From: an uncultured Acetobacteraceae bacterium
GTDB lineage: Bacteria; Pseudomonadota; Alphaproteobacteria; Acetobacterales; Acetobacteraceae
Direction of reading: 5' to 3'
Length of the DNA: 48,461 bases
Assembly (NCBI GenBank): GCA_937873205.1
Contig: CALMVO010000041.1
Span: 1 to 48,461 of the forward strand
A program made the position numbers and the translations under genes. Below are positions 13,757-17,196 of the stretch, one piece after another. Under the pieces are notes generated by a model. It ran no database searches and was not told the origin of the DNA. It worked only from the letters and a program-made list of their open reading frames with translations. Numbering within the stretch: the stretch's first letter is position 1; every line of letters starts with the position of its first letter.

Positions 13757-13830
13757 CGGACCTTACCTCCTGGCGAGACGAACCTGCATGCATCGTAAGA
13801 CCAGCCCTGCGCGCCATCCGCCGGGTTCGA

Positions 13831-14367
13831 TCAGCCCCGACTCGTAACCGTCGCGATGGCTTGCCGCAACAGATCGGCCAGCACCGCGTAGCCCGCGGCG
13901 CTCGGATGGACGCCGTCGGCGTTGTAGAGGCCGGACGCGCGCGCGTCCGGGTCCGCCATGCCCGACGCGTTCGCGTAGTCGATCACCAGGTCGGCACCGG
14001 CGGCGTTGCGCAGCTCTAGAGGATGATCCGATCGCTTAGGCTCACGGATCATCCTCTAGCTTCTTGTTCTGACGAGCATCTTTATCCGATCGAACGAGTC
14101 CGTTCGATCGGATGATGCTCTAGGACGTTGTACTCGGCCAGTGCCGCCTGGGCGGAGGGGCTCCAGTCGGGCCGTCCGAGCTCGGTCGAGACGATCACTT
14201 GCCAGCCCTGGGCGTGCGCCAGGGCGACGTAGCGCCGGAGGCTGTCCGCCGCCTCGCCGGCAGTCCGTCCCGCCGCGATATCGTTGTCGCCGCCGTGGAA
14301 CAGGACGATGTTGAACGGCGCCGCCGGGTCGTGGTGCGGCGCCACCCGGTCGGGGAAGTCCGCGAGC
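13831..14367 (-). pseudogene. SGNH/GDSL hydrolase, truncated and interrupted copy
   Basis: Compared with the intact copy at 16606-17196 this gene lacks its first about 53 codons, including the nucleophile motif DGDS, because homology ends at 14367. It is also split by a 104-bp palindromic insertion at 14020-14123. The middle part (PFNIVLFHGGDNDIAAGR) and the C-terminal DGVHPSAAGYAVL segment remain in frame on either side of the insertion. Read through the insertion, the first part ends in YNVLEHHPIERTRSIG. It cannot encode an active enzyme. Confidence 0.9.
14020..14123. mobile_element. 104-bp double-palindrome element inserted in the SGNH pseudogene
   Basis: The element is absent from the otherwise matching copy at 16788-16794 and is flanked by the direct repeat gctctag (14013-14019 and 14117-14123). 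It holds two hairpins: arms ctagaggatgatccg/cggatcatcctctag (14016-14030 and 14045-14059), and gagcatc plus atccgatcgaacg pairing with cgttcgatcggat plus gatgctc (14074-14120, one 3-nt bulge). It has no coding capacity. The CTAG borders and hairpins recall non-autonomous interspersed palindromic repeats known in alphaproteobacteria, moved by an enzyme supplied elsewhere. Confidence 0.82.
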
Positions 14368-14518
14368 TCCGGATGGTCCGACGAGTTCGCGCGATCCGTC
14401 CTCGGCCAAATGCGATAGCCCTGTGCGCCCCGGGCTGCCGGCTTGACCGGTCGGGGCCCGGCCTTCAGAGTCGTGATCTAGCCATATGTGCTGCATCGAC
14501 GGCGCGGGAAGGGCATCG

Positions 14519-16273
14519 ATGACGGACATCGCGTTCTGCATATTCGGACAGTTGCGGGACGACGATCACGTACTTCCGCTTACAGCGAAGCTGGCTCTCG
14601 AGCTGGGCGCCACCGTGTTCGTCAGCACTTGGCGACGCCGCGGCGCCAAGGTCGGCGGTATCATCCAAATGCCACAGGCCGCCCACCTGTTCGGCTATGA
14701 GCCGAGCCGCCTGTTGCCGGGGGCGCTATGCGCCGGACCTAACTTCTTCCGGGCCCTGCCCGGATTCGACATGGCGCTGATGGGCCGGCAGCCCGATGTC
14801 GAGGCGGCGCAGCTGATGTCCCATTTCCCCGAGGCGGTCATCGACATCGAGGGCGACGAGCTCTGCCTCGACTTCCGGGAGCCAGCTGTCGCCGATACCA
14901 ACAGCTTGCGCATGCTCTACAAGGCCTGGCGCTGCAACGAGCTGAAGCGGTCGGCCGAGAAGCGCCGTGAACGCCCGTTCGATGTCGTGGTCCGGTTCCG
15001 TGCCGATCTGGTGCCGTCGATCGAGAACCTCGAGCATCTTATCGCGACCCTGCGTGATAACGAGGTCTGCATCCCCGGCGCCGGCCTGGACTACGTCAAC
15101 GATACGCTTGCGATGTCGTCATCGGGCGCTGCCGACTCGCTGGCCGCCGCATTCGGCACAGCGCTGCTGTCGCCGGGGCGTCCGTGGGAGATGATCCATC
15201 ACGCGCTCGCTCGGCACATCCGCGAGACCGGGCTCGTGGCCCGCAACATAAGCTTCCTACCGATCCTCACCACGCCGGAGCGACAGATGCAAAATCTGCG
15301 TCTGCTGCTGGAAGCGATCCGTACCGGCGCGATCGATCCGGATTTTTTCCCCAACCCCGCCACTTGGCCTTCCACCGCGTCTCTGCTCGAGGCGCAGGTC
15401 CGACTTGATGAGGCGGGGGCGGAGGGGGCGCTCGGCATCGTGAACACGCTCGATCTGCCGGCGCTCGATCTCGACCAGCTCCGCTGCGTCGGCAACCTGC
15501 TCGAAAGCTGCTTCCGGGCGAACGGCGCCGCCGGCTCGCTCTGTACCGCGCGCCTGCTGGGGGTCGTTATCGCCGTACTGCTCGATCCGGCCGGTCAGGA
15601 TGACTACCTGCGCAATCGCATGCCGGTGGATCAGGTGGCGGATGCGCTGATCGACATATCCGACAAGCGTCCTCTCGATGCGCTGCTGCACGAGCGTGTC
15701 CTCGAGCCGGGCGAGCTCGATCCAGCGCTGTCCCCGCTGCACGCGGAGGTGCTCGGCCGCGCTGGGTCGGAGCAGGTTCGGGCTATCCTCGACGGTATCG
15801 GCGTGGTGCTGGCGCAGTCGTTCCAGGTGCAGAGCGTGCGCTTCAATAAGGCGCTACACCAGCGCGGCGACTTTCCGGCGGCGATCGCCATTGCCGAGGG
15901 GATGACGGAGCGGTTTCCCGACGATTCGCAGGGCCACGACCTCCTTGGTCACGCTCGCGAGCGCAACGGGGATCATCGAGGTGCCTACATAGCGGCGCAG
16001 TCGGCGCTCTGCCTCGACCCGCAGAATCCCGGACTAATGACCCGTCTCGGTATGCTGTCGCTCGGGGTGGACCGGCTCGATGAGGCCCATGATCTGTTCG
16101 ATGCGGCGCGTTCGGTCTGGGTTGACGACCGTCCCTGGGCCGGTCTGGTGACGACTGCCATCGCCCGGGGCCGTTCCGGAGAGGCCGCGGCCCTGGTCAA
16201 GGAAGGTTTGGCGAGGTTCCCCAACAGCACCTGGCTAGGCGACCTGTCGCAGCGGGTCCAAGCGTTGGCCTGA
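14519..16273 (+). CDS. Putative glycosyltransferase-like protein with C-terminal TPRs
   Basis: 584 residues from the ATG at 14519, which has GGAAGGG 6 nt upstream (an upstream in-frame ATG at 14486 lacks this). The N-terminal part begins TDIAFCIFGQLRDDD, then VFVSTW and later FDVVVRFRADLV. The pattern F.GQLR, STW and RxRxD occurs in a poorly studied group of polysaccharide-locus proteins and suggests a sugar-transfer or sugar-binding fold; catalytic residues cannot be assigned. Residues about 440-580 are TPR-like (FNKALHQRGDFPAAIAIAEG, AYIAAQSALCLDPQNPGLM, RLDEAHDLFDAARS). Codon use is slightly less GC-extreme than the housekeeping genes. It sits between the two SGNH copies on the opposite strand. 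Confidence 0.6.
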   Translation: MTDIAFCIFGQLRDDDHVLPLTAKLALELGATVFVSTWRRRGAKVGGIIQMPQAAHLFGYEPSRLLPGALCAGPNFFRALPGFDMALMGRQPDVEAAQLMSHFPEAVIDIEGDELCLDFREPAVADTNSLRMLYKAWRCNELKRSAEKRRERPFDVVVRFRADLVPSIENLEHLIATLRDNEVCIPGAGLDYVNDTLAMSSSGAADSLAAAFGTALLSPGRPWEMIHHALARHIRETGLVARNISFLPILTTPERQMQNLRLLLEAIRTGAIDPDFFPNPATWPSTASLLEAQVRLDEAGAEGALGIVNTLDLPALDLDQLRCVGNLLESCFRANGAAGSLCTARLLGVVIAVLLDPAGQDDYLRNRMPVDQVADALIDISDKRPLDALLHERVLEPGELDPALSPLHAEVLGRAGSEQVRAILDGIGVVLAQSFQVQSVRFNKALHQRGDFPAAIAIAEGMTERFPDDSQGHDLLGHARERNGDHRGAYIAAQSALCLDPQNPGLMTRLGMLSLGVDRLDEAHDLFDAARSVWVDDRPWAGLVTTAIARGRSGEAAALVKEGLARFPNSTWLGDLSQRVQALA

Positions 16274-16532: not shown

Positions 16533-17038
16533 TATCGAGACCTTACCTCCTGGCGAACGAACCTGCACCGTACGGCCAGCCCCGCGCGCCATCCGCCGGG
16601 TTCGATCAGCCCCGACTCGTAACCGTCGCGATGGCTTGCCGCAACAGATCGGCCAGCACCGCGTAGCCCGCGGCGCTCGGATGGACGCCGTCGGCGTTGT
16701 AGAGGCCGGACGCGCGCGCGTCCGGGTCCGCCATGCCCGACGCGTTCGCGTAGTCGATCACCAGGTCGGCACCGGCGGCATTGCGTAGCTCTAGGACGTT
16801 GTACTCGGCCAGTGCCGCCTGGGCGGAGGGGCCCCAGTCGGGCCGTCCGAGCTCGGTCGAGACGATCACTTGCCAGCCCTGGGCGTGCGCCAGGGCGACG
16901 TAGCGCCGGAGGCTGTCCGCCGCCTCGCCGGCAGTCCGTCCCGCCGCGATATCGTTGTCGCCGCCGTGGAACAGGACGATGTTGAACGGCGCCGCCGGGT
17001 CGTGGTGCGGCGCCACGCGGTCGGGGAAGTCCGCGAGC
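16533..17038. repeat. Segmental duplication, copy B
   Basis: It matches 13757-14367 without the 104-bp insertion. At its left edge the matching begins within the shared string tcctggctg, which is also the end of the dnaB fragment, so the junction carries a short microhomology. Beyond 17038 the intact SGNH gene continues with sequence missing from copy A. Confidence 0.88.
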
Positions 17039-17196
17039 GACGCGGAGACCGGCTTGCCGGACTCCGCCGCCATGACGATGCGGACCGGCACGTCCATCAG
17101 CCGCGCCAGCCGTGCCGCCGGGGTCTGCGCCTCCACGACGCCGTAGCCCCGCGACACGCTGTCGCCGTCGAACACCAGCACGCCCGGCGGCGTCAC
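16606..17196 (-). CDS. SGNH/GDSL-type hydrolase (intact copy)
   Basis: 196 residues with all SGNH blocks: FDGDSVSRGYG (nucleophile Ser13), a Gly in ESGKPV (block II), FHGGDND (Asn of block III) and DGVHPSAAG (catalytic Asp169 and His172). The family covers esterases, lipases and carbohydrate O-acetylhydrolases; substrate cannot be read from the sequence. No signal peptide is evident, which suggests a cytoplasmic site. It is the only complete one of three copies in the region. Its C-terminal end faces the dnaB fragment, so the TPR gene that follows the other copies is missing here. Confidence 0.88.
   Translation of the reverse strand: MTPPGVLVFDGDSVSRGYGVVEAQTPAARLARLMDVPVRIVMAAESGKPVSASLADFPDRVAPHHDPAAPFNIVLFHGGDNDIAAGRTAGEAADSLRRYVALAHAQGWQVIVSTELGRPDWGPSAQAALAEYNVLELRNAAGADLVIDYANASGMADPDARASGLYNADGVHPSAAGYAVLADLLRQAIATVTSRG

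Follow-up and report, generated by a model that had tools for sequence, protein, structure and literature searches.

The window (the whole stretch of DNA analysed, 48,461 bp of contig CALMVO010000041.1 from an uncultured Acetobacteraceae bacterium) contains one copy of a short repeat with two hairpins, which is well supported as a TA-duplicating MITE. On balance the element is probably non-autonomous, with a DDE transposase that inserts at TA, perhaps an IS630-like one, moving it in trans. The parts of the copy in the window are as follows.

14016..14123, plus strand: CTAG-to-CTAG repeat unit of 108 bp; the same unit recurs across the genome
14019..14120, plus strand: element proper of 102 bp, starting with G and ending with C, as delimited under the TA-duplication model by border variants and empty sites of relatives
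14017..14018, no strand: left TA of the target duplication, within CTAG (comparison with the twin in the window, border variants)
14121..14122, no strand: right TA of the target duplication, within CTAG (same evidence)
14016..14059, plus strand: hairpin 1, 15 bp and perfect, arms 14016-14030 and 14045-14059, CTAG on both sides
14060..14073, plus strand: conserved spacer, family consensus approximately CTnTTTGTTTTGnC
14074..14120, plus strand: hairpin 2, consisting of GAGCATC, an unpaired TTT (14081-14083), ATCCGATCGAACG, the loop AGTC and the partner strands
14016..14034, plus strand: left terminal inverted repeat; of its 19 bases, 17 can pair with 14105-14123
14105..14123, minus strand: right terminal inverted repeat, pairing with the left one

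The order within the element is thus CTAG, hairpin 1, CTAG, spacer, hairpin 2, CTAG. The net insert is 104 bp, made up of the element proper and one copy of TA. Folding of positions 14009-14123 as DNA gave -38.8 kcal/mol, against -15.2 +/- 2.4 kcal/mol for 200 shuffled sequences (z -9.7). The element is gene-free, and the long reading frames found there only enter from outside. The two hairpins, the CTAG borders and the absence of an own gene that a preliminary description of this DNA had reported are confirmed.

The insertion site could be compared with an empty counterpart in the window itself, for which three further features are needed.

16791..16794, no strand: empty target CTAG in the duplicated twin, a single CTAG without insert
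14082..14345, minus strand: remnant frame of a GDSL-like hydrolase that runs into the element (PF13472, E 0.00018, below the family cut-off)
16606..17196, minus strand: open twin gene of 196 aa with the uninterrupted CTAG inside (PF13472, E 1.7e-15)

The flanks of the element are repeated at 16.55-17.04 kb with one CTAG and without the insert. Across the site the spacing of the direct repeat drops from 2775 to 2671, which is exactly 104 bp and confirms the empty twin site that had been proposed. Identity between the repeats is 96% up to and including the first CTAG; beyond the insert, starting with the element's last bases, it is 99%. The segmental duplication of approximately 0.5 kb (13779-14367 and 16554-17038) flanks a TPR-containing ORF of 595 aa (14486-16273), and its left copy is a truncated gene. 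Since the GDSL-type frame is open in the twin and broken in the left copy, the window copy sits inside a spare gene copy and not at a stop codon.

A 7-bp target duplication, gctctag, had also been proposed for this site. This proved wrong: GCTC is the element's own end, and the duplicated part is the TA in CTAG. The four bases at the right border are CTAG in 84 of the 87 copies read in the host genome, and any base can precede the left CTAG (C 30, T 23, G 19, A 13), so that the matching gct on the left is due to chance. A border survey covered 170 copies, 87 from the host genome and 83 from 26 other genomes. TA is kept on both sides in 143 of these, a count that requires a left TAG and a right CTA and omits the 27 others for mutated or misplaced ends. 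The outer bases of the 143 are C..G in 120, C..A in 12, T..G in 6, T..A in 2, C..T in 2 and A..G in 1. Next to the TA, the inner bases are mostly constant and set by the element (G on the left, C on the right), whereas the outer ones vary; hence TA is what is duplicated, and YTAR is preferred as target, CTAG most of all. A 4-bp duplication of CTAG does not agree with mixed borders, e.g. CTAG on the left with CTAA on the right. CTAG is a scarce word, present 17 times in the window versus 130 expected from base composition and 48 expected from its shorter words.

Relatives of the element on Rhizobium plasmids provided filled and empty states of two more sites. Two filled records at the site by an ROK-regulator gene have the form CTAG...CTAG, and CTAG occurs once in each of all four empty records aligned; one of the four also lacks about a dozen flanking bases. 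The ROK-regulator gene is 1203 bp long both in the filled record NZ_CP025508 and in the empty record NZ_CP054023. At the site by an ABC-permease gene, the filled form reads TTAG...CTAA and all five empty records aligned read TTAG. The stop of the permease gene is TAA in the empty form and TAG in the filled form, the latter being the target TA plus the terminal G of the element. The left T at this site comes from the target, contrary to the prediction of an IS608-like mode of insertion. A single silent substitution separates the right outer base of the filled form from that of the empty records; any model needs a mutation to account for it. The matches listed suggest further empty records at the two Rhizobium sites; a third site, in Sphingobium TomTYG74, was too rearranged to read. 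A duplication of TA at empty sites is thus seen in the window twin, the Rhizobium relatives and the borders alike. Terminal inverted repeats are present as well; in 27 relatives it is mainly TAGAGC and CCG that both ends retain.

The host genome (3.73 Mb, 155 contigs) was searched for further copies. The left 15-base core, with at most one mismatch, had 238 matches, about two per copy, and its reversed control had none. The right end, with at most three mismatches, had 271 matches versus 2 in the control, in a pattern that also catches left ends. The genome is estimated to hold 120-135 copies, a figure based on match counts and not on every copy read. Forty copies, that in the window included, are full-length with no more than three mismatches. 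In approximately 478 kb of DNA, 87 full-length copies were read, comprising 71 distinct sequences; 10 copies are identical to the consensus. Their flanks (20 bases each) are distinct in 83 cases on the left and 85 on the right. Among 69 own copies of 108 bp the median pairwise identity is 97%, and a further own subfamily, with CTAGAGCGTGATCC ends, is approximately 89-92% like the window copy. The element is thus short (102-104 bp), without a transposase gene and multi-copy. The absence of other copies, which the preliminary description had named as the finding that would speak against mobility, clearly does not hold with 238 core matches and 87 copies read. Its suggestion of a non-autonomous palindromic mobile family with CTAG borders was right, and the copies equal to the consensus and the high median identity point to a recent spread. 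It is plausible, judged from these sequences, that the element is still mobile.

Neighbouring copies on three contigs (C108, C127 and C40) have one CTAG in common, which is what insertion of a copy into another copy's border would produce. Seven contigs of the host genome (C11, C26, C39, C52, C72, C152 and C57) start inside or at an element; apparently it is the repeat that interrupts the assembly there. In the left flanks of four copies (L013, L032, L047 and L106) another repeat adjoins, approximately GGGCAGRGCCCTGGCC.

The element also has relatives outside its host. All five genomes of the genus have matches: 120 in the host genome (both strands and partial matches included), 31 in G003, 24 in G002, 4 in G004 and 1 in G001. 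The better copies of G002 and G003 resemble the window copy to 78-85%, the remainder to as little as 71%. G002 has a young subfamily of its own (median identity 97%, with 12 of 14 copies compared). In a sample of the family, 44 of 200 Acetobacteraceae genomes matched, in 33 of 102 genera; at most four candidates per genome were scored in this survey, so that per-genome counts are lower bounds. A covariance model was built from 27 representatives and tested on relatives to which blastn had pointed. It matched sequences in Acidiphilium (E 4e-15), Rhodovastum (2.5e-13), Methylosinus (1.2e-11), Sphingobium (8.7e-10), Rhizobium (4.4e-9 and weaker) and Methylorubrum (8e-7), and weakly in Ancylobacter (0.003) and one Rhizobium fragment (0.008). 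Another Rhizobium fragment (L396) had no match to the model, nor did nine empty-site Rhizobium records at E up to 1. A 130-base query of the Rhizobium form found 1765 places, whole or partial, on 480 plasmid records, mostly of Rhizobium and Sinorhizobium, and the Sphingobium form found 72 places on 24 plasmid records. The element had no match in Rfam at gathering thresholds and none in a phage collection.

Several derivatives were seen among the relatives. Genome G092 contains tandem arrays of the spacer and hairpin 2 alone with CTAG-like joints (L190, L322 and L323), which look as if the element consisted of CTAG-bounded modules, in a BIME-like manner. Short derivatives (L133, L155, L153 and L129), in which the outer arms are fused to single hairpins of approximately 40-50 bp or hairpin 1 has collapsed, look like products of palindrome deletion. 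Two copies of genome G022 (L174 and L299) have the same left flank but differ on the right, as recombination between elements would leave them.

The sequence of hairpin 1 differs among genera, with pairing mostly kept. Hairpin 2 is more conserved and has a 20-bp stem with the unpaired TTT. Covariation was assessed in 27 sequences, one per genome or subfamily, and its figures are inflated by the relatedness of the sequences and by the structure having been taken from one of them. With this reservation, 90.9% of the hairpin cells are paired, versus 31-39% when the partners were slid, and both-sided changes occur in 18 of 35 hairpin pairs (96 such cells, versus 30 in shuffles). In hairpin 1, four types of pair occur at individual positions. 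When the two ends of the element were paired with each other, 84.2% of the cells matched, with 19 both-sided cells versus 7 in shuffles, and covariation was 0.141 for the ends versus 0.297 for the hairpins. Between the ends, 8 to 12 of the 27 sequences mismatch at the four central bases. The signal from end to end being weaker than that of the hairpins, each hairpin is kept as a unit. This upkeep can come from recognition of a folded strand, from a role as RNA, or from repair copying of one arm from the other.

Many copies lie at gene ends. At 70% GC the length of an open frame tells too little by itself, and copies were instead judged by coding frame, for which 60 open codons with at least 80% GC in third positions were required; 78 of the 87 own copies were testable in this way. 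The border TAG is the exact stop of the adjacent gene in 46 of these 78, versus 23 of 132 testable unoccupied CTAGs (Fisher 1e-9). In-frame borders number 23 on the left and 31 on the right, those in other frames 3 and 1, respectively. With CTAGs inside genes excluded, the proportions are approximately 46 of 74 versus 23 of 88 (p 6e-6). Selection against insertions inside genes accounts for part of this excess, which on its own does not amount to a targeting preference. The target TA and the terminal G of the element together form a TAG stop. With a palindromic target and a G at both ends, the stop would be rebuilt on either side, and insertions at gene ends would survive.

As to the enzyme, the IS630/Tc1-mariner group duplicates TA, and IS630 prefers CTAG. 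The TA duplication described above agrees with this, and IS630 is the most likely kind of mover on the present comparison. Such a DDE transposase, supplied in trans and of a TA-inserting kind (most likely IS630/Tc1-mariner), would cut at the TAGAGC ends and paste the element into the TA within YTAR, best CTAG. The hairpins may also serve as 3' RNA stems or as a recognised folded form. Some IS630-type copies of the genus have TA and GAGC ends: L069 has CTAGAGCATTTT at both ends, L091 has CTAGAGCGGTTT at both ends, L080 has such a left end, and the fragment L070 of the host genome has TTAGAGCACTTTG at one end. The end search took only ends starting with TA plus G- or A-rich patterns and so favours TA and GAGC-like ends; the likeness to the element amounts to approximately six bases, two of them target. 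The commonest IS630 type read (6 copies, in G001) has other ends. The host genome has five PF13358 matches, with frames of 100-250 aa. None of the IS630 elements at 29 PF13358 loci has the full ends of the element, and no autonomous element with full ends was present in the loci read. An IS transposase with matching ends, which the preliminary description proposed to look for, was not found in these loci; some IS630 copies match in about six end bases. Frames between two close pairs of copies, inspected by eye, contained no obvious transposase.

Some observations fit a DDE transposase of IS630 type less well. G002 has no IS630 (PF13358) match yet carries its young subfamily, so its mover would be lost by now or be another enzyme. 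G001 has the most IS630 and IS5 matches of the genus genomes, yet a single element match. Finally, covariation is lower for the ends than for the hairpins, a pattern more typical of elements whose folded single strand is recognised.

A broader reading, which we regard as tentative, takes such repeats as mobile palindromes found across the Alphaproteobacteria that would combine two traits seldom found together, covarying hairpins of REP type and a TA duplication of MITE type. Their preference for CTAG and their terminal G would permit a protein-neutral landing at stop codons in either orientation, with TAG kept and TAA turned into TAG. The mover would then be another enzyme, perhaps a domesticated one.

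It is unlikely that the same MITE is moved instead by an IS5-family (IS427-like) DDE transposase, although copies of that family in the genus also lie in TA or CTAG. PF13340 and PF01609 matches occur in all five genus genomes, and the IS5-type copies L242/L246 and L250/L254 end in CTAGAGG; in general the IS5-type copies of the genus have TA and GAGG ends or others. However, the ends of the element and of IS5 have only TAGAG in common, another resident IS5 group (L198 to L219) was read by eye as making a 3-base TTA/TAA duplication, and G002 has only two PF13340 and three PF01609 matches, several of them with stops.

We also consider it improbable that some other enzyme, possibly encoded by a single-copy gene, recognises the folded hairpins and yet duplicates TA. 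Hairpin covariation alongside TA duplication would suit such an enzyme, as would the lack of correlation of the element with RAYT or Y1 and with the amount of IS630 and IS5 in the five genomes. No candidate gene was found for it, however, and a non-correlation in so few genomes is weak.

Still more doubtful is a REP- or REPIN-like element that a tyrosine (HUH) transposase, e.g. RAYT, copies in single-stranded form, with CTAG in the role of GTAG and no true target duplication. In favour of it, the two inverted, structure-conserved palindromes are separated by a conserved spacer, hairpin 2 contains an unpaired bulge, a tetranucleotide marks the foot of the hairpin, the hairpins covary, and the arrays of G092 consist of a single module. 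According to the part of the source consulted, GTAG REPs and REPINs likewise form an inverted palindrome pair, often with a conserved spacer, carry a tag at the foot and often supply TAG stops (PMC3733652). In addition, three young own copies that otherwise resemble the consensus (L028, L029 and L030) deviate from CTAG on the right only. Unlike in GTAG REPs, however, the tag is CTAG, TA is duplicated at empty sites, and no RAYT was detected in the genus, so that a REP-associated transposase, also considered in the preliminary description, is not supported. Y1_Tnp (PF01797) matched none of the five genus genomes and 24 of the 200 family genomes. A RAYT alignment matched 37 of the 200 and none of the four genus members sampled, and 11 of the 44 genomes with the element have RAYT, with 8.1 expected (p 0.27). 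No RAYT gene flanked by the repeats was found, and there was no element in the 34 of 59 RAYT/Y1 loci, from other genera, given to the covariance model; both matches of that run are one element of the host genome beside the IS5 locus L212. Copying of this kind predicts CTAA, and not the TTAG observed, in the empty permease gene. Two own copies deviate on the left (L104 with TTAG, L329 with ATAG), and over all copies the C..A and T..G borders (12 versus 6) are not significantly asymmetric.

RAYT matches number up to 9 per genome among the 37 genomes and lie in genera other than that of the window. IS608-like insertion 3' of CTAG, which the three young copies with a deviation on the right only had suggested, finds no support in the wider border counts or at the empty permease site. 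On an Acidiphilium multivorum plasmid (NZ_CP041717.1, L258) a full element lies directly 3' of an IS200/IS605-type tnpA gene; this IS200 tnpA was set aside as a lead, as a whole separate element lies there.

For the window site itself, an ancestral 104 bp precisely lost from the twin would look identical, but this is very improbable: many copies occupy different genomic sites, relatives show filled and empty states at the two Rhizobium sites, and the insert disrupts a frame that the twin keeps open. The first and second of these also make the proposed insertion after the segmental duplication most likely right.

Among known systems, a close comparison is with RUP of Streptococcus pneumoniae (107 bp, IS630-Spn1-like ends). 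In the part of the source consulted, RUP is similar in length, copy number (110 RUP in ATCC 700669), terminal inverted repeats and target duplication, and has likewise been proposed to be mobilised by an IS630 element; that part makes no mention, for RUP, of a two-hairpin layout with conserved spacer or of placement at stop codons (PMC3049150). RUP also differs in sequence and base composition. Our element works like a MITE such as RUP and resembles a dimer of REPs. CGTC REPs carry a CGTC tag and have stems of 8-9 bp, unlike the CTAG and the stems of 15 and 20 bp found here, and CGTC repeats are absent from Acetobacteraceae according to the excerpts used (PMC3733652).

Rhizobia also have intergenic repeats of similar form. 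The Rhizobium relative found here has a shape like that of RIME (Rhizobium-specific intergenic mosaic elements), reportedly described by Osteras in 1995 as rhizobial intergenic repeats of approximately 100 bp with two palindromes. RIME may be the rhizobial branch of the same family. Open-licence literature was searched with strings from the element and with names, and the matches listed, as far as their text was available, included no description of the element.

With the TA-duplicating MITE described here, a family of palindromic repeats without RAYT gains a concrete, testable insertion rule, for which complete Rhizobium plasmids offer natural examples of filled and empty sites. The element shows that the rare, stop-bearing word CTAG is usable as a safe landing site. 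It is also a well-defined case in which to seek the enzyme of repeats without a known transposase, the same question that, in the part of the source consulted, is left for CGTC REPs (PMC3733652).
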